Part shown: positions 28,363 through 63,330 of the stretch, in pieces
Numbering within the stretch: position 1 is the first letter of the stretch
Layout of the letters: every line of letters begins with the position of its first letter
From: Alphaproteobacteria bacterium
GTDB lineage: Bacteria; Pseudomonadota; Alphaproteobacteria; Micavibrionales; Micavibrionaceae
NCBI GenBank assembly: GCA_016125135.1
Contig: WGMJ01000003.1
Location: 186,001 to 250,000 of the forward strand
Length of the DNA stretch: 64,000 nt
Reading direction: 5' to 3'
Notes under the pieces: generated by a model
Databases searched by the model: none
Told to the model about the DNA's origin: nothing
The model's input: the letters and a program-made list of their open reading frames with translations, nothing else
Position numbers and translations under genes: made by a program

Positions 28363-28827
28363 ATGGACAATGTTGTGTCATTTCGGCGTGCCTCAAACGC
28401 CATGGAAACTTTCCTTGACGATGAATATATCAAGGCGTGCTTCAAGATATTCGAAAAACTGGCAACAAAACTAGAAAGCACGCGACCTTTTGAAGTTTTC
28501 TTTAAAGAGGGCAAATGGGATCAACTCGCAACGGCCTTTATTACGCCCAAGGAGCTAAAAACACGTGAGGGGGATGCATATCGTGATATTACCTTTTCTG
28601 CTGGCCTTATAAAGCTAGGAGCAGGTAACTACGATTACAAAATCGAGATGACACTGACTTCAACGGAAACGACTGACTGGCCTTTTTCTTATAAAATTGA
28701 AGCCAAGTCTCCTGAAGCACTCTTTAGCAAATTGAAAGAGTTTATAGACTGGTTCTGCCTTCCGGATGTTGCCGATAACGACACAGACTTGAAGACTGCT
28801 ATGGATTATGCACTTAATTGTGCATGA
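28363..28827 (+). CDS. Unrecognised 154-residue protein upstream of the MFS pair
   Basis: A 154-residue acidic soluble protein, starting ATG 28363 with MDNVVSFRRASN, a short basic N-terminus. The rest is mixed alpha/beta with TRPFEVFFKEGKWDQLATAFITPKELKTREGDAYRDITFSAGLIKLGAGNYDYKIEMTLTSTETTDWPFSYKIEAKSPEALFSKLKEFIDW, which looks like two beta-hairpins followed by a helix. No signal peptide or TM. Its stop TGA overlaps the start ATG of the first MFS gene (ATGA), so they are co-translated. I do not recognise it. A TTGACA box lies at 28327-28332, 35 bases before the start, with only a poor -10. Confidence 0.75.
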   Translation: MDNVVSFRRASNAMETFLDDEYIKACFKIFEKLATKLESTRPFEVFFKEGKWDQLATAFITPKELKTREGDAYRDITFSAGLIKLGAGNYDYKIEMTLTSTETTDWPFSYKIEAKSPEALFSKLKEFIDWFCLPDVADNDTDLKTAMDYALNCA

Positions 28828-29981
28828 AACGTCTTTCGAACGTTAAGCTTCTCTACTGGCATAATTTTCTGCTTTATTTCAGGCCTTATGACCCGTTGGC
28901 GATCCTGTATTTCAACGAGATAACGGGCAATTTCGCGGCGGCCATGGGTATATTTGCTGCAACTCAAATTGCCTCTGTTCTTTTTGAAATACCTACGGGT
29001 GTAATCTCCGACCGCATCGGCCGCAAGAAAACATTCATATTCGGGAGCGCCACCGCCATTCTTGCCATTACCGCCTATGCACTTGCAACATCTTCATTCC
29101 TGCTGATTATTGGCGCCCTGCTTGAAGGCAGTGCCCGCACATTTTTTAGCGGCACACGGAATGCCCTCATTTACGAAACCCTCAAAGAAGAGGGCCGCGA
29201 AAAAGAATATCACCATGACCTCGGCAAAGCATCGAGCTTCGTCCATGTCGGGCTAGGCATCGGCGCGTTGGCAGCCATTCCCTTCACCGATATATCACTA
29301 CGTACAGTGTTCTTTGCCAGTATCTTCCCGCAAATTGTAGCACTCCTGCTGTGCTTTTTGCTGCATGAACCAAAAATCCATTTACAGGAAAAACAGAAAA
29401 GCCTGCAAATCTTCTGGGAGGCTTTCAAGAAAATATGGCATAACAAAAAGCTGCGTACTTTTACACTTGCACAATCACTCGCACGCGGGACAGATTATGC
29501 CGGCTTTCGTTTCCGTGGCGCCTTTATAGAAACAGTGTTCCCGCTTTGGGGCCTTTCGGTTATCACATTTATTGACCATATCGCCTCCTCTATCAGTTAC
29601 TGGTTTGCGGGCAAGGCGATCGATAAAATTACACCCAAATGGGTTGTGATGAGTTTTGAGGCCCTGAACTTTGTTTCCATTAGTCTTGCCATTCTATTAA
29701 AAAATATGGTGTCATCCATTCTTCTGATCCTGCCCGCTTTTGCTTACGGCACAATGATGACGGCGAAAGAACAACTTATTCAGGACGAATTTACAGACGC
29801 GCAACGCGCAACCATGGGCTCAATCGGCCAATTACTGCAGGCTTTCTGCTATATGTTCGTGGCACTCTTTATCGGTTTTCTGGCAGATCTTTATGGGCCC
29901 GCCGTAGGGCTTTTTGCCGCTGTTGCCATCCAGTTCGCGGTAACGCCGCTTTATGCCGGGTTCTTCAAGCGGGAAGCGTAG
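28824..29981 (+). CDS. MFS transporter, first of a tandem pair
   Basis: A 385-residue protein of the major facilitator superfamily with 11-12 predicted TMs. Diagnostic are the motif A between TM2 and TM3, EIPTGVISDRIGRKKTF (GxxxDRxGRK), and a TM region with EGSARTFFSGTRNALIYETLKEEG. The start ATG at 28824 overlaps the upstream TGA; an in-frame TTG two codons earlier is less likely. The next gene is a close paralogue with the same N-terminal motif LLYWHNFLLYFRP. The substrate is unknown; small-molecule or drug efflux is possible, but no resistance-specific feature is visible. Confidence 0.9.
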   Translation: MKRLSNVKLLYWHNFLLYFRPYDPLAILYFNEITGNFAAAMGIFAATQIASVLFEIPTGVISDRIGRKKTFIFGSATAILAITAYALATSSFLLIIGALLEGSARTFFSGTRNALIYETLKEEGREKEYHHDLGKASSFVHVGLGIGALAAIPFTDISLRTVFFASIFPQIVALLLCFLLHEPKIHLQEKQKSLQIFWEAFKKIWHNKKLRTFTLAQSLARGTDYAGFRFRGAFIETVFPLWGLSVITFIDHIASSISYWFAGKAIDKITPKWVVMSFEALNFVSISLAILLKNMVSSILLILPAFAYGTMMTAKEQLIQDEFTDAQRATMGSIGQLLQAFCYMFVALFIGFLADLYGPAVGLFAAVAIQFAVTPLYAGFFKREA

Positions 29982-30020: not shown

Positions 30021-31172
30021 ATGAAGCGGCCTTCCAACGTACAGCTCCTTTACTGGCATAATTTTCTTCTTTATTTCCGTCCGCTTGACCCACTTGCGGT
30101 ATTATATTTTAACGAAGTCACAGGCAGCTTTACAGCTGCAATGGGTATCTTTGCTATCAGCAAGATTTCTGCAATCCTTCTAGAAATCCCCACAGGCATA
30201 CTTTCGGATAGAATTGGCCGTAAAAAAACATTTATACTCGGCACACTAACAGGCATTATTGCCACCATATTCTATGCCCTTGCAGCATCATCATTTTTTC
30301 TTTTACTTGGTGCGGCACTAGAGGGCACAGCACGGACCTTCTTTAGCGGGACACGAAATGCCTTCCTCTATGAAGTGCTGAAAGAAACTGGTGCGGAAAA
30401 AGAATACTCCAGAGACTTGGGCCGTACCTCAAGCTTTATTCATGCGGGCCTCGGCCTTGGCGCTTTGGCAGCCATACCATTTGCCGATATTTCACTCAGA
30501 CTTGTTGTTGCTGTTGGCATTATACCGCAGATTCTAGCATTTCTGGTTTGCCTCTTTCTCGTAGAACCTAAAATCCACCTGCAGGAAAAGCAAAAGAGCT
30601 TCTCCATTTTATGGGCTGCCACACAAAAGCTTTGGCAAAACAAGAGACTTCTGGTTTTTACCTGCGCCCAATCTCTTGCCCGCGGCATTGATGATGCGGG
30701 TTATAGATTCCGATCCGCCTTTATTGCGCCTCTTTGGCCCGTATGGGGCATATCGGTTCTGGCTGTCTTTGATCATATTGGCGCGGTGATTACCTATTGG
30801 TCCGCAGGAAAGATCATAGAAAAAATCACGCCCAAATGGATTATTATTGGCTTCGAGTTCCTAACTGTTGGCTGCAAGGGCATTGCCGTACTCCTGAATA
30901 ATGTTTTCTCGCCACTTATCATGGTTATTCCCGCATTCGGATTCGGTCCGATGATGACGGCGAAAGAGCATATAGTTCAAAATGAGTTCACTGATTCACA
31001 GCGCGCCACCATGGGGTCCATCGGCTCATTACTGCAGGCGCTTTGTTACCTTGTCATCGCGCTTCTCATGGGTGCGGTCGCCGATCATTGGGGACCGGCA
31101 GTCGCAATTCTTGCTGTCATTGTTATACAGCTTGCGGTAACACCGCTTTATGCACGGTTCTTCAAGCAATAA
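30021..31172 (+). CDS. MFS transporter, second of a tandem pair
   Basis: A 383-residue paralogue of the preceding transporter, aligned over its whole length: MKRPSNVQLLYWHNFLLYFRPLDPLAVLYFNEVTGSFTAAMG against MKRLSNVKLLYWHNFLLYFRPYDPLAILYFNEITGNFAAAMG. The motif A EIPTGILSDRIGRKKTF and the EGTARTFFSGTRNAFLYEVLKETG segment are kept. The two genes are 39 bases apart. It probably arose by local duplication, followed by divergence in the second half of the protein. Its last 11 bases overlap the end of the Xaa-Pro aminopeptidase gene tail-to-tail. Confidence 0.9.
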   Translation: MKRPSNVQLLYWHNFLLYFRPLDPLAVLYFNEVTGSFTAAMGIFAISKISAILLEIPTGILSDRIGRKKTFILGTLTGIIATIFYALAASSFFLLLGAALEGTARTFFSGTRNAFLYEVLKETGAEKEYSRDLGRTSSFIHAGLGLGALAAIPFADISLRLVVAVGIIPQILAFLVCLFLVEPKIHLQEKQKSFSILWAATQKLWQNKRLLVFTCAQSLARGIDDAGYRFRSAFIAPLWPVWGISVLAVFDHIGAVITYWSAGKIIEKITPKWIIIGFEFLTVGCKGIAVLLNNVFSPLIMVIPAFGFGPMMTAKEHIVQNEFTDSQRATMGSIGSLLQALCYLVIALLMGAVADHWGPAVAILAVIVIQLAVTPLYARFFKQ

Positions 31173-56740: not shown

Positions 56741-57451
56741 CTATTCACCACGGCCCACGCCAACAAAATGCAGGATCGTCTGGAACATGGCAATGAAGCT
56801 GATGTAAAGATTTAACGCTGCTGACCATGCCATGCGGCTGTTTGATTCAGCGCCCCAAGCCGGATTATACATTTCCTTGGTTGTTTGTGTTTGCCATGCT
56901 GTAAGGCCCGCGAACGCAATAATAGCAACGATTGAAATTACATTTCCAAGACCGCTATTACCAATGAAGATATTGATCAGGCTTAAAATCAAAACGCCCC
57001 AGATCCCCATGATTGCGAATGAACCAATCGCATCGAGGTTTTTCTTGGTCGTGTAGCCAAAAATGCTTAAGCCCGCAAACATACCTGTTGCTATAAAAAA
57101 TGCCTTAGCAATGCTCTCACCGGTAAAGGCAATAAAGATCACCGCAAAGCTGATGCCGTAAACAACAGCGAGTGCGAAAAACGAAATAGAAAGTTTGCGG
57201 CTATCCATTGTCATCGGGTTAAAGCCAAACCAGATAATCGCAAGTGGCGCAAGCATCACGATCCATTTTTGCGGGCCACCCAGAAAGAGCTGTAAAAGAG
57301 GCTCCGAGCCTGCCACAAACCATGACACAAGGGCTGTCACCAGCACGCCAAGGGTCATACGGCTATAAACGCTGTTCATATGGGCCCGCAGACCGGCATC
57401 ATAGGTTACAGCCTGTTCAGATGTACGGGTTTGAAACTGATTAGATTGCAT
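56741..57451 (-). CDS. BAX inhibitor-1/YccA-family membrane protein
   Basis: A 236-residue inner-membrane protein with seven predicted TMs (about residues 25-235) and the conserved N-terminal SEQAVTYDAGLRAHMNSVYSRMTLGVLVTALVSWFVA. The BI-1 C-terminal segment is AALNLYISFIAMFQTILHFVGVG. E. coli YccA interacts with FtsH; related proteins leak calcium. A sigma-70-like promoter (57490-57519) precedes it, with a GGAGG ribosome-binding site. Confidence 0.94.
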   Translation of the reverse strand: MQSNQFQTRTSEQAVTYDAGLRAHMNSVYSRMTLGVLVTALVSWFVAGSEPLLQLFLGGPQKWIVMLAPLAIIWFGFNPMTMDSRKLSISFFALAVVYGISFAVIFIAFTGESIAKAFFIATGMFAGLSIFGYTTKKNLDAIGSFAIMGIWGVLILSLINIFIGNSGLGNVISIVAIIAFAGLTAWQTQTTKEMYNPAWGAESNSRMAWSAALNLYISFIAMFQTILHFVGVGRGE

Positions 57452-57543: not shown

Positions 57544-58410
57544 ATGAACAGCCTTCGCATTGCTCTTTTTCTTATTATTTTCAGCCTGTTGCCCTTTGCC
57601 GCTGTTTTTGCTGCAACAGCCGAACAAATCCCATCTGCCGCCCCTGTACCACCGGCTGAACTAGAAGCGTTGAAAAGCAAGGGCGCAGAGTTGCAATATC
57701 TTGGCGAAGACCGCGGCGTTGATGGCTGGATCGTCCTGATGCCCATTGCCAAAAAAGAAGCAGCGCCTGCCGCTAAAGCGGACAATACAAATAATGATGA
57801 CGCTATCAAAGCGTTGCAGGAAAGCCTGAACCAGATTTCAGACGGTCAGGCGCCGACTACCGAAACACCAACCACACTTGCCTTGCCCGAAGTGCCAACA
57901 GCAAAAGCAGAAACCAGAAAGCCGCCAAGTGCTGCCGCGCTTAAGCTCTGGAGCGGTGTTGAAAAAACAAACTGGGTGCAATGGGGCAATTCAGATGCGC
58001 CTTATATTTATGCACTGATAGACCCGTTCTGCCCCTTCTCGCAAAAATTCATGCAAGATGTTCAAACCAAAAACTGGATTAGCGGCAACCGCGTACAGGT
58101 TCGTCTTATTCCGGTTGGCTATGTGAAAAAGGAAAGCCTTGATGTTGCGGCAACGCTTTTAAACACAACTGATGTAAATAGCTGGGCCAACAGAATGGCC
58201 GCGGGCACACCCGCAGGCGATAAGAGCCAAAAAGTTGAAAAATCAGCCCGTAAAAAAGTGGAGAAGAACTTCGATACAGTTGCCGGTTTCCACTTCGACG
58301 CCACGCCCTTTATTGTCTATAAAACCGGCGGCGGCGAGATTAAAATCATCCGTGGCAAGCCCGATACCCTCTATGCCATTGAGGCAGACTTGCTAGAAAC
58401 CACCCGATAA
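57544..58410 (+). CDS. DsbC/DsbG-like thioredoxin-fold protein with CPFS active site
   Basis: A 288-residue secreted protein with signal peptide (about 1-23). The linker is Pro/Ala/Thr-rich (about 70-130), followed by a thioredoxin-fold domain (about 145-285) of the DsbC/DsbG type. The motif is DPFCPFS (Cys163, Ser166), so the second cysteine of CxxC is a serine. The cis-proline loop ATPFIVYK (Pro255) is intact. The single cysteine could act as a sulfenic-acid reducer or a trap, but not as a normal disulfide isomerase. It has a short N-terminal region (about 28-66) resembling the DsbC dimerisation element. It heads a series with the 58426 gene after 15 bases. Its substrate is unknown. Confidence 0.85.
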   Translation: MNSLRIALFLIIFSLLPFAAVFAATAEQIPSAAPVPPAELEALKSKGAELQYLGEDRGVDGWIVLMPIAKKEAAPAAKADNTNNDDAIKALQESLNQISDGQAPTTETPTTLALPEVPTAKAETRKPPSAAALKLWSGVEKTNWVQWGNSDAPYIYALIDPFCPFSQKFMQDVQTKNWISGNRVQVRLIPVGYVKKESLDVAATLLNTTDVNSWANRMAAGTPAGDKSQKVEKSARKKVEKNFDTVAGFHFDATPFIVYKTGGGEIKIIRGKPDTLYAIEADLLETTR

Positions 58411-58425
58411 CCCATAATCACCCCC

Positions 58426-59502
58426 ATGAATCCCAAGGTCGAATTTTTCTCGCAGGTTATTGAACGTCTTGCCGCCCCGCTCTCGGCAGCGGTCAGTGAA
58501 GTGGGTATGCGTTCGGGCGGCAAAACCGATATTGAGACCGAGGCAAAACGTGTGGCCGAACTGCTGACAAAATCGACCCAGCTAGGCATGGATATGGCGG
58601 GTATTGTCGGATTAAAGGGCGAAGAGAATGAAGCAGACTCCGTCAGGCTTGCACTCACCTGTATCGCCTCGATGCTTGTATCCAACCATTACCGTCTGAC
58701 AACAAAGCCACCAGCAGATGCAGATGTTGCAAAATTTTCCGACAGTTTAAAAACAAGTATTGGCTTTGCAGACCAGTTTGCAAGCGGCGCTGAAACCGTG
58801 AACCGCCTGCGCACACTTGACCGTGACTTCTTCCCTGCCGATGCACACCAGGTTACGCTTCTTTACATTAACGCACTTGTGCCTGTTATCAGCGCGGTGG
58901 CAGCTTTCCCGTTTGGCCAGCAAGAGAAAAAACTTGTGCAGGATATTGCTTCACGCCTGCAAGATAATGCCAAAGCCATGGCATCGCTTCACTTCGGCAA
59001 GTTACAGCCGATGGAAAAGGCCCGCGTTGAGCTTTCTATCCTGCGCACACTTGCCGTTATTTACAGCCAGTGCCACTTTGCCGAAATGGCCCGCCTGATG
59101 GCGCTGGGCGATGCGGCCCGCAACGCAGCCCCTGCAAATCTTGATACAGTATGGGCGATGTACGATACCCGCGCAGCACTCGCCGAAACACTGACAGAAA
59201 TGCTGGCGCTTGATGCCCCTGAAACAGTCGCCCCCGCTGCCGTTGCACCAGCCCAACCTGCAACTACACAGCCTGCGGCCGCACAATCCTCGGGTGGTGG
59301 AAACCCGATGGGGTTCTTTGCGCCTAAAACAGGTGATGCACCTGCAGAGCCGCCACCAGCTGCAGCTGCACCATCCGCTCCACCAGTACAACCTGTGGCA
59401 CCACCTGCCGCCGCAACGCCGCCAACAGAAAATACAGGAAGCCCTATGTCCTTCTTTTCAAAGAAAAAAACCGATGAAGATGGAAATACGGATAAAACTT
59501 AA
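58426..59502 (+). CDS. Unrecognised helical protein with Pro/Ala-rich tail
   Basis: A 358-residue protein with no signal peptide or TM. The first ~265 residues are helical, including VEFFSQVIERLAAPLSAAVSEVGMRSGG, IGFADQFASGAETVNRLRTLDRDFFP and AKAMASLHFGKLQPMEKARVELSILRTLAVIYSQCHFAEMARLMALGD. The last ~95 residues are Pro/Ala/Thr-rich and disordered-looking, with the motif NPMGFFAPK (about 294-302) echoed at the end by SPMSFFSKK (about 338-346). It lies 15 bases after the DsbG-like gene and 28 bases before the transglycosylase. The family is not recognised. A cytosolic scaffold with a short repeated docking motif is an inference. Confidence 0.75.
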   Translation: MNPKVEFFSQVIERLAAPLSAAVSEVGMRSGGKTDIETEAKRVAELLTKSTQLGMDMAGIVGLKGEENEADSVRLALTCIASMLVSNHYRLTTKPPADADVAKFSDSLKTSIGFADQFASGAETVNRLRTLDRDFFPADAHQVTLLYINALVPVISAVAAFPFGQQEKKLVQDIASRLQDNAKAMASLHFGKLQPMEKARVELSILRTLAVIYSQCHFAEMARLMALGDAARNAAPANLDTVWAMYDTRAALAETLTEMLALDAPETVAPAAVAPAQPATTQPAAAQSSGGGNPMGFFAPKTGDAPAEPPPAAAAPSAPPVQPVAPPAAATPPTENTGSPMSFFSKKKTDEDGNTDKT

Positions 59503-59530
59503 CCTAAATATGGTTTAATAAACTCAAGAT

Positions 59531-59938
59531 ATGCTGACAAAAGTAATCGCCGCCTGCCTTCTTCTTGCTGCACAAACATACGAGGTGCCGCCCGCTGTGC
59601 TTGTGGGCATTATGCAGGTTGAAGGTGGCAAGGTCGGGCAGGAAGTAAAAAATAAAAACGGCACGTCTGACCTTGGCCCGATGCAAATCAACACACTCTG
59701 GATTCCACAACTTGCACAATATTGGGGCATCAGCGAAACCGATGCTTACCGGATCGTGCGGGATGACCCTTGCACAAATATGGGCGTTGCCGCATGGATT
59801 TTGCGCAATCACCACCTTGAAACCGGCTCCCTATCACAAGCTATTTCCTACTACCATTCGCGCACGCCCTCACTAGGCGGAAAATACAAATACAAAGTTA
59901 TCGGTGCCATGCAGCGCCAAGGCCTGATCAGACAATAA
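59531..59938 (+). CDS. Small lytic transglycosylase (SLT-domain)
   Basis: A 135-residue protein with a short signal-like N-terminus (about 1-15), then a single SLT domain. The catalytic glutamate is in VLVGIMQVEGGKVGQ (about residue 33), followed by SDLGPMQINTLWIPQLAQYW, DPCTNMGVAAWILRNH and AISYYHSR. Such enzymes cut peptidoglycan glycan strands to let envelope machines pass. Minimal SLT enzymes of this kind accompany type IV secretion, conjugation, pili and flagella. Neighbours on the same strand are the DsbG-like and helical unknown genes, but no other secretion component is in the window. Confidence 0.88.
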   Translation: MLTKVIAACLLLAAQTYEVPPAVLVGIMQVEGGKVGQEVKNKNGTSDLGPMQINTLWIPQLAQYWGISETDAYRIVRDDPCTNMGVAAWILRNHHLETGSLSQAISYYHSRTPSLGGKYKYKVIGAMQRQGLIRQ

Positions 59939-59986
59939 TCCATTCCGGAGAGTGACTTTCATGTCGGTGCAGACTATACTTGGCGC

Positions 59987-61633
59987 ATGGATTCAGCCCC
60001 GCTTTTGCAAATAAAAAATCTTGGTGTCACGTTCAGCCCAGCAGGCGCTGTGCCTGTTGCCGCCGTTAAAAACGTCTCGTTACAGATTGAAAAAGGGCAA
60101 ACGCTTGCTGTTGTCGGCGAGTCAGGCTCGGGCAAATCCGTTACGGCACTCTCCATCATTCAATTACTCCCCTATCCGGTCGCGGGACATACAGCAGGCT
60201 CCTCCATCAAATTCACGGGACAGGAACTTGTAGGCGCTGGCGAAAAAATACTGCGCGATATACGCGGCAAACGCGTCAGTATGATTTTTCAGGAGCCACT
60301 TACTTCACTTAATCCGCTCCATACAATTGGAAAGCAGATTGCAGAAGTGATCCTGCTCCATGCACCAGACGGCATTGAAATTTCGAAAAGCACGGTACAG
60401 GCGCGCACAGCCGAACTACTGCAAAAGGTGGGGCTTGAAAATCTGGTGGCGCGCATAGATGCCTACCCGCACCAGCTTTCCGGCGGACAACGGCAACGTG
60501 TCATGATTGCGATGGCCCTCGCCAACAACCCCGATCTGTTGATTGCTGACGAACCCACCACCGCGCTTGATGTGACGATACAAGCACAAATTCTGGAGCT
60601 TCTGCAAAAGCTGCAAAAAGAAATGGGCATGGCACTTTTGCTTATCAGCCATGATCTGAAAGTTGTTCGTAAAATGGCCGATCATATCGCTGTGATGCGC
60701 AATGGCGAGGTTGTGGAATATGCCGCAAAAGAAAAGCTATTCGAAAAGCCACAGCATGAATATACAAAGATGCTGCTTTCGGCCGAGCCCCGCACGGCCA
60801 ATAAGCCGCCGCATCCGGACGCAGAGACCCTACTTGATGTGCAGAATCTACATGTGCGATTCCCGCTCGAACAGCGGATTTTTGGCAAGCCGAAAAAGTT
60901 TCTTGATGCTGTTGATCATGTCTCCTTCAAACTCAAACAGGGTGAAACGCTCGGCATTGTCGGCGAGTCAGGCTCGGGCAAATCCACACTTGTTTATGCG
61001 CTCTTACAGCTCTTAAAAGCGCAGAGCGGACAAGCATGGCTCATGCACAATCTAACCCGCAAAAACCTGCTCTCGCTGCCTGCAGCAAGCATGCGCGCCG
61101 AGCGGAAAAATATCCAGATTGTCTTTCAAGATCCGTTTGGCTCGCTCTCACCCCGTATGAGTGTGGGTGAAATCATTGCCGAGGGCCTTGCCGTGCATGA
61201 ACCTGCTATTAGTAAAAAGCAGCGTGATGAACGCGTGATAAAAGCGCTTGAAGATGTACGGCTTGACCCTGCCATGCGGTTCCGTTTCCCGCATGAATTT
61301 TCAGGTGGGCAAAGACAGCGTATTGCCATTGCCCGTGCGCTTATTTTAAACCCGCGCATTCTTGTGCTCGATGAACCCACTTCCGCACTAGATGTTTCTG
61401 TGCAGGCACAAATTATCGACCTGCTACAGGAAATCCAGGCGCGGGATAAAATATCCTATCTTTTTATCAGCCATGATTTACGGGTGATCGGCGCAATCGC
61501 CGATCACATCATGGTCATGAAAAACGGGAAGGTTGTCGAGCAAGGCCCTGCGCGCACTATTCTGGAATCGCCCAAAGAAGCCTATACACAAGCCCTGATG
61601 AACGCGGCCCTGCATCTTAAAACCGCAGCGTAA
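59987..61633 (+). CDS. yejF: Double-ATPase peptide ABC transporter ATP-binding protein (YejF-like)
   Basis: A 548-residue protein with two fused ABC domains of the DppD/DppF type. The first has Walker A GESGSGKS (about 44-51), signature LSGGQRQRV (about 163) and Walker [21 protein letters not shown]. The second has Walker A GESGSGKS (about 325), signature FSGGQRQRI (about 437) and Walker [21 protein letters not shown]. Each has the oligopeptide C-terminal extension. Single-chain double ATPases are found in YejABEF and related peptide or glutathione importers. The permeases and binding protein are not beside it, so they lie elsewhere. Confidence 0.93.
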
Positions 61634-62030: not shown

Positions 62031-62705
62031 TTATGAAGGCGTCATGCCGAACATCGGCTCGTTCTTCTCACGGCTATATTTATAAACAACTGTCTCGTCC
62101 CCCTTGGCTTGCAAGAAGGCAGGCGGTGTATAGCGCGTTACGCATTTGCCTGCTTTTGCAAGCATATCCGTTGCCTTGATATTCGCTTTTGAAACCTGCT
62201 CTTTCATCACACCTAAAACGCTTCCCCACGCTTCCTTGGCGATCTCCATACCCATCACCACCAGCCGCTTTAATTCTGCATGCTCGGGCACCTGTCCCTT
62301 CACCGCGTCACCGAAGCCACGCAATGAAATGCCGAGCTTGTCTTTATCAACGAGTTTTGGCTTTTTGCCACCACCGCCACCCTTGCCGGATGATGATGTT
62401 TCTTCTTCCTCGTCGTCGTCCCTGTTCGCCTCACCGGGCAAATTCGCATTCGCTACACGAAACTCGGCAAAAGTCGGGGCCTGAAAGCTCACCGGATAGA
62501 GTGCCAGTTCTTTTGGTTGTAATTCACGGCCTGAAACACCCGCGCGGACCTCAATGCGGATCGCTTCCGGATGACGCCAGTCAAACACCACACTGTGGCT
62601 CTTATGGTCGCCTGAAATCGGGCACCCTTTGACCAGACGTTTGCCTGGGTAAAGCGCATCCTCTACCCCGCACTCGCTCAAGAATTCTTTTATGTTCGTT
62701 TGCAT
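62031..62705 (-). CDS. Unrecognised protein with acidic and Gly/Lys-rich linker
   Basis: A 224-residue soluble protein without signal peptide. It has two regions. The N-terminal one (about 1-100) includes KEFLSECGVEDALYPGKRLVKGCPISGDHKSHSVVFDWRHPEAIRIEVRAGVSGRELQPKELALYPVSFQAPTFAEFRVAN. After a linker with NRDDDEEEETSSSGKGGGGGKKPK (about 108-131), a helical C-terminal part (about 135-210) carries KLGISLRGFGDAVKGQVPEHAELKRLVVMGMEIAKEAWGSVLGVMKEQVSKANIKATDMLAKAGKC. The ATG at 62705 is chosen over one 7 codons upstream because AAGGAG stands 7 bases before it. I do not recognise the family. Confidence 0.8.
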   Translation of the reverse strand: MQTNIKEFLSECGVEDALYPGKRLVKGCPISGDHKSHSVVFDWRHPEAIRIEVRAGVSGRELQPKELALYPVSFQAPTFAEFRVANANLPGEANRDDDEEEETSSSGKGGGGGKKPKLVDKDKLGISLRGFGDAVKGQVPEHAELKRLVVMGMEIAKEAWGSVLGVMKEQVSKANIKATDMLAKAGKCVTRYTPPAFLQAKGDETVVYKYSREKNEPMFGMTPS

Positions 62706-62820
62706 TTCGGGTCTCCTTATATTCATAACCCCGGCTTTATGCCGTATTGTTTTCTATAATTCACCAAAAACGTTAAAAGGCGCTTAATTTTTTCGGAAAA
62801 TAACGGCATATTATTCAGGC

Positions 62821-63330
62821 ATGACAAAATTATTCCCCGCCGCCCTGTTTCTGGCCCTTTTGGGGGCCTTTCCGGCCCTTGCCCAGCAACCGGTCGAGCT
62901 ACCCAAACCCAGCCCAGCAGATATTAAATACGTACAGGAATATGCCACCCAGCGTGAAACCCAGACGCGCCGCTTTCTCGCGCTTGATGAAAAAATGTTT
63001 CCCCATGCCCGCCAGATGGTTGAACAGCAGAAACAAGCTGCAGAAGCACAAAAGAAAAACTGGCTACAGAATATGATGAACCCGTCAACATGGTTCAAAA
63101 AACCGGAACCTGCGCCTGCACAACAAGCGCAACCAGTCCCCGCAACAACAACCAATGCGACACAACAAGCTGTACCTGCTGCAGCGGCACCTGCTACAGC
63201 CCCGAAAAAGAAAGCGCCAAGTTTTGTCCTCACCCCCGATGATGATGCGCCGCCTGCTAATACGCGGCAGCAACCTCAACAAAAAAATGAAAACGAGGGA
63301 CCTGCCCCCGTATTTGGTTTTACCCGTTGA
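62821..63330 (+). CDS. Secreted protein of unknown function with Pro/Ala/Gln-rich C-terminus
   Basis: A 169-residue protein with signal peptide (about 1-21, FPALAQQP). The mature part has a helical stretch (about 33-80: IKYVQEYATQRETQTRRFLALDEKMFPHARQMVEQQKQAAEAQKKNWLQNMMNPSTWFKK). It then becomes low complexity, rich in Ala, Pro, Gln and Thr, ending GPAPVFGFTR. The function is unknown. Its stop codon TGA overlaps a TTG start of the membrane protein that follows (TTGA). Confidence 0.75.
   Translation: MTKLFPAALFLALLGAFPALAQQPVELPKPSPADIKYVQEYATQRETQTRRFLALDEKMFPHARQMVEQQKQAAEAQKKNWLQNMMNPSTWFKKPEPAPAQQAQPVPATTTNATQQAVPAAAAPATAPKKKAPSFVLTPDDDAPPANTRQQPQQKNENEGPAPVFGFTR

Follow-up and report, generated by a model that had tools for sequence, protein, structure and literature searches.

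The systems closest to the locus described here are the Dot/Icm machine of Legionella and Coxiella, a type IVB secretion system (T4BSS), and the IncI (R64-like) conjugation apparatus with its thin pilus, in which TraH, TraI, TraJ and TraK correspond to DotD, DotC, DotB and IcmT. For the order Micavibrionales, no evidence for type III or IV secretion was reported in M. aeruginosavorus ARL-13 (Wang et al., 2011; PMC3189940), and the available passages of a later paper mention a pT4SSi in passing, in seven marine members of the order (Needham et al., 2022; PMC9418006). A search of the open-access literature found no paper linking Dot/Icm with Micavibrio, the thin pilus or DsbG, and no description of the three-gene block analysed below. 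The order includes predators of other bacteria. Judged by gene content and gene order, the block is likely to be an accessory part of a type IVB (Dot/Icm-type) secretion system that Micavibrionales encode on the chromosome.

The three-gene block and the Dot/Icm-type machine

The window, a stretch of 64,000 nucleotides (G000:C4:186001-250000), comes from a genome of 2.23 Mb. Three consecutive genes on its plus strand make up the block. P1 (57544..58410, plus strand) encodes a DsbG-like thioredoxin-fold protein predicted to be exported, as assigned from DsbG family and PDB matches, an alignment, its cysteine columns and a structure model. P2 (58426..59502, plus strand) encodes an all-helical core followed by a disordered Pro/Ala tail, as seen in an AlphaFold2 model and in a motif shared with relatives. 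P3 (59531..59938, plus strand) encodes a minimal lytic transglycosylase (SLT), identified by Pfam SLT, a TrbN model and alignment with the EtgA structure. When coordinates and strand were rechecked, the gaps of 15 bases (P1–P2) and 28 bases (P2–P3) given by a sequence-only reading of this DNA proved exact. A promoter and terminator scan yielded nothing useful above shuffled sequence. Upstream of P1 lies a gene for a Bax1-I/YccA-like membrane protein (56741..57451, minus strand), and 36 of 80 loci from relatives have the same gene in this divergent position. Downstream, an unrelated gene for an oligopeptide-type ABC ATPase (59987-61633) occupies the place where relatives have dotD-dotC-dotB-icmT. 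Elsewhere in the window, an exported protein whose tail is rich in Pro, Ala and Gln (62821-63330) and its divergent neighbour (62031-62726) match no family, and two adjacent, similar MFS-type transporter genes (28818-29981 and 30021-31172) look like a tandem duplication.

Members of the block are widespread in the order. Searches of up to 114 genomes detected P1 in 109, P3 in 105, P2 in 76 and DotH in 108, and the DotH-bearing genomes include small ones; in each of two single-contig genomes (G054 and G047) dotH was matched at 1e-100. P1 and P2 are same-strand neighbours in 71 of the 75 genomes that have both, and P2 and P3 in 72 of 75, so the arrangement is not due to chance; a lack of such neighbourhood, which the sequence-only reading had named as a refutation, was not observed. 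Of the 45 genomes in which the block and dotH share a contig, 32 have the block in the dotH orientation, 11–28 kb upstream of that gene. In the 80 separately fetched loci, dotD directly follows P3 in 69, and the complete order P1-P2-P3-dotD-dotC-dotB is present in 52, with one more in which P1-P2 is inverted. By this synteny, the block is the predicted 5' end of a T4BSS operon, P1-P2-P3-dotD-dotC-dotB-icmT, in Micavibrionales. Two families of the order (f3 and f5, e.g., G025, G041 and G019) have P1 and P3 directly adjacent (13–128 bases) and no detectable P2; thus, P2 is inessential to the machine in general. In two relatives, the flagellar genes flgK and flgL separate the dotB part of the T4BSS locus from the dotI part (L089:9613-12943 and L088:7668-11023).

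Across 385 genomes of the class, a P2 profile added 7 from outside the order. Four of these, which represent three families (G494; G331 and G228; G419), have P2 and P3 adjoining dotD-dotC-dotB-icmT, mostly in the order P2-P3-P1-dotD; P2 is inverted in G331, and P1 was not found in that stretch. P2 and P3 are together in G214, and P1, P2 and P3 in G202, with dotDCB absent from the fetched stretch in both. The seventh genome (G159) gave a weak match.

The genome that contains the window encodes such a machine. DotH is found at C4:312033 (2.4e-78, over the curated cut-off) in a dotI-dotH-dotG cluster 68 kb from the block, where DotI and a DotG-like protein (6e-50, below the strict equivalog cut-off) lie beside it. 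DotD, DotC and DotI were recognized by Pfam over curated cut-offs, and DotD, DotC, DotB and IcmT (7.5e-26, over cut-off) are encoded on contig C15. DotB matches the Dot/Icm model at 3e-117, below the strict equivalog cut-off of that model, compared with 7e-74 for TraJ. It is 49% identical to DotB of Legionella adelaidensis and 28–35% identical to plasmid TraJ-type proteins, which places the machine nearer Dot/Icm than IncI conjugation. A TraU search recovered a VirB4-type DotO/IcmB homologue at C4:442682 (1.8e-98), next to an IcmJ/DotN-like protein that scores below the cut-off of the DotN model. The suggestion that the block serves an envelope-spanning machine is borne out: the machine is a T4BSS of Dot/Icm type whose genes lie outside the window in this genome. 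The accompanying remark that no other component is present is true of the window and untrue of the genome.

Linkage of the block to the dot genes is present in relatives and broken in the window's genome. Since the Bax1-I-like neighbour is common to the window and many loci, the left border has been kept and the break falls between P3 and dotD. Synteny in the 80 loci, together with the genome's own dotD, dotC, dotB and icmT on contig C15, points to a rearrangement just after the SLT gene, with a putative junction at 59939..59986, that would have parted the block from dotDCB-icmT and from dotI-dotH-dotG.

P1 and the loss of a cysteine

P1 is a protein of 288 amino acids with an N-terminal hydrophobic signal. 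It matches the NCBIfam DsbG model PRK11657 at 5.7e-26, below the model cut-off, and E. coli DsbG structures at 6.7e-15. Its active site reads DPFCPFSQ, in agreement with the description of P1 as a secreted thioredoxin-fold protein with CPFS in place of CxxC; Cys163 is the sole cysteine of the whole protein, and Ser166 ends the motif. P1 of the window thus lacks the CxxC of DsbG/DsbC thiol oxidoreductases, and it retains the cis-Pro Thr254-Pro255. In an alignment with 26 relatives, the N-terminal dimerization-type domain is shortened. The structure model (pLDDT 81.9) has low confidence at about residues 71–115 and is confident in the thioredoxin domain, mostly above 90.

The sequence-only reading treated CPFS as a feature of the module, and this did not survive comparison with orthologues. 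Among 53 distinct P1 proteins in a first set of loci, CxxC is missing only from the window protein. In a second set of 72, which shares some source genomes with the first, the motif is CPHC, CSHC, CVHC, CEHC, CPYC, CAHC, CGHC, CVFC or CIHC, and P1 relatives from other alphaproteobacterial families also have CxxC. Orthologues with CxxC were what the sequence-only reading had named as a refutation, and CxxC is present in all the other orthologues that were compared; the lone cysteine therefore characterizes the window lineage and not the module. On this distribution, the one-cysteine state is best described as a derived loss. The tip branch of the window P1, compared on a tree of P3, DotD, DotC and DotB, is the longest of 54: it measures 2.17 substitutions per site, 7.4 times the median of 0.29. 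The corresponding tip-to-median ratio of neighbouring proteins is 1.6–3.2, and P2 and P3 are ordinary in rate. By sequence comparison, P1 of the window lineage evolved more quickly than the proteins around it, and both the resolving cysteine and a segment of the N-domain are gone. A single-sequence search of genome contigs with P1 gave no match, and a search with an alignment of the SLT did.

P1 would act as a periplasmic folding factor of the machine, and in relatives as a dithiol DsbG-like enzyme. In the window lineage, without the resolving cysteine, the two-cysteine reaction is no longer possible; the probable outcomes for P1 there are persistence as a chaperone or single-thiol trap, or decay. 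The last of these, in which the single cysteine marks a lost function and not a new role, has somewhat less than an even chance. The missing cysteine and N-domain segment and the exceptional branch length are what decay would leave; against it, the reading frame is intact, the signal peptide, Cys163 and Thr254-Pro255 are retained, the thioredoxin domain is confidently modelled, and P2 and P3 evolve at ordinary rates. Cys-rich exported proteins of one family are encoded beside dotI in this genome (L005:166-2735 and L004:17104-19998, at C4:305-311 kb) and in a relative (L089:13108-17040). These proteins are possible clients of P1.

P2, P3 and the roles of the block

P2 has 358 amino acids and no recognizable signal peptide, and it matches no family in Pfam, NCBIfam or PHROGs; a phage origin was rejected on the lack of a PHROGs match. 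The AlphaFold2 model, built with 68 relatives, has nine helices (residues 3–262) and an unstructured tail (265–358) in which a motif occurs twice, as PMGFF at 294 and PMSFF at 340. The picture of a helical protein with a long Pro/Ala tail and a repeated motif was accurate. Nearly all P2 proteins of Micavibrionales (69 of 70) have a tail rich in Pro and Ala, of about 100 residues in the median, and near its C-terminus [NSGTDA]PM[SAGT][FYM][FY], summarized as [NSG]PM[SAG]FF; like the window protein, 15 P2 proteins have the motif twice. In the scanned loci, P2 is the sole predicted protein with such a motif within 80 residues of its C-terminus. The P2 proteins of the further genomes outside the order have neither the Pro/Ala tail nor the motif. 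In a Foldseek search of the PDB, the best match of the P2 model had an E of 0.24. The top matches were designed helical proteins and membrane proteins, these helical-bundle matches were uninformative, and none was the fold of a T4SS protein. P2 of a relative had no match among plasmids. P2 is an unnamed and undescribed protein family.

Docking motifs usually take the form of a conserved short peptide that ends a variable linker. Since the P2 tail has this form, its peptide is a candidate docking motif. P2 would be a cytoplasmic helical adaptor whose C-terminal PM-S-FF peptide, carried on a flexible tail, docks on the machine or a coupling component. A more ambitious proposal can be offered only tentatively: P2 would found an undescribed T4BSS adaptor family (helical domain, disordered tether and [NSG]PM[SAG]FF docking peptide) that recruits the SLT/DotDCB assembly or substrates, and the DsbG-like partner of the window would have turned into a single-thiol, non-catalytic folding factor. 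If so, the recruitment would be to a machine that may act on the prey of Micavibrionales. With the block come a conserved but unnamed protein family and a short motif, both open to direct tests in a cultured predator that attacks its prey from outside.

P3 is, as first described, a 135-residue SLT protein (Pfam SLT, 8.3e-8). The closest model by profile is TrbN (6.7e-27, below the model cut-off), and the closest solved structures are those of EtgA. P3 has Glu31 at the catalytic position and GxMQIN, as expected of a VirB1/IagB/TrbN SLT domain. Its Cys9 and Cys81 are invariant and align with the cysteine pair of EtgA, the first of them with a cysteine inside the folded EtgA domain. In a survey of start positions, 79 of 80 genomes have this first cysteine only 8–12 residues after the earliest start that the sequence permits. 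A start so near it leaves no room for an ordinary signal peptide, although the domain has to work in the periplasm; export by another route is possible. P3 would cut peptidoglycan locally so that the envelope-spanning complex, and with it a type IVb pilus, can be assembled, and it may serve both structures; with its invariant cysteines it would be one plausible client of P1. Together, these considerations suggest P1 as an envelope folding factor, P2 as a cytoplasmic adaptor and P3 as a peptidoglycan opener.

It is unlikely, though worth weighing, that the block mainly serves a type IVb (R64-like) pilus of the same locus and that its linkage to dotDCB is secondary. In the relative G001, the locus encodes TcpQ-domain, secretin, PilO, PilQ-type ATPase and PilS/bundlin proteins; P3 shares 43% identity with BfpH, its match to the IncI SLT PilT is at 7.6e-11, and PilT of IncI plasmids sits in the pil operon. 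By analogy, P3 could work for the pilus and not for the T4BSS. However, the block abuts dotD and not pil genes in relatives, and on the IncI plasmid a search of the 41-kb transfer region, pil and tra genes included (by profile for P2), gave no match to P1 or P2. That the block is instead an independent, undescribed envelope system of three genes defined by a one-cysteine DsbG, much as the sequence-only reading proposed, is highly improbable: it stands apart from the other T4BSS genes in the window, but all other P1 proteins examined have CxxC and, in the rest of the order, the block lies in a T4BSS operon ahead of dotDCB-icmT. Service to the Dot/Icm-type machine remains the preferred reading.

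Comparison with known systems

Among single proteins, E. coli DsbG resembles the window P1 in its thioredoxin domain, cis-Pro loop and export. The relatives of P1 keep CPHC/CPYC-type motifs, whereas the window P1 differs by CPFS, a shortened N-domain and one cysteine. Enzymes of the EtgA/IagB/VirB1/TrbN type share with P3 the SLT fold family, the catalytic Glu, GxMQIN and a cysteine pair at the EtgA positions; unlike them, P3 starts about 8–12 residues before its first conserved cysteine in nearly all genomes.

Among whole systems, the pT4SSi of marine Micavibrionales belongs to the same machine class and the same order, and the accessory block does not appear in the available passages of that paper (Needham et al., 2022; PMC9418006). 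The IncI system shares TcpQ/PilL, PilN, PilO, PilQ, PilS, an SLT (PilT) and TraH-I-J-K, whereas traH is preceded by TraE, TraF and a phosphatase, which are unrelated to P1 and P2. Dot/Icm of Legionella and Coxiella shares with this genome DotB, DotC, DotD, DotG, DotH, DotI, IcmT and DotN- and DotO-like proteins. An apparent difference is that P1-P2-P3 precede dotD in Micavibrionales, the search for P2 counterparts having covered alphaproteobacterial genomes, plasmids and the IncI region; another is that type IVb pilus genes lie in the same locus in one relative. In sum, a machine of a known kind has a conserved accessory block here, in which one protein family is undescribed and a single lineage has lost a catalytic cysteine.
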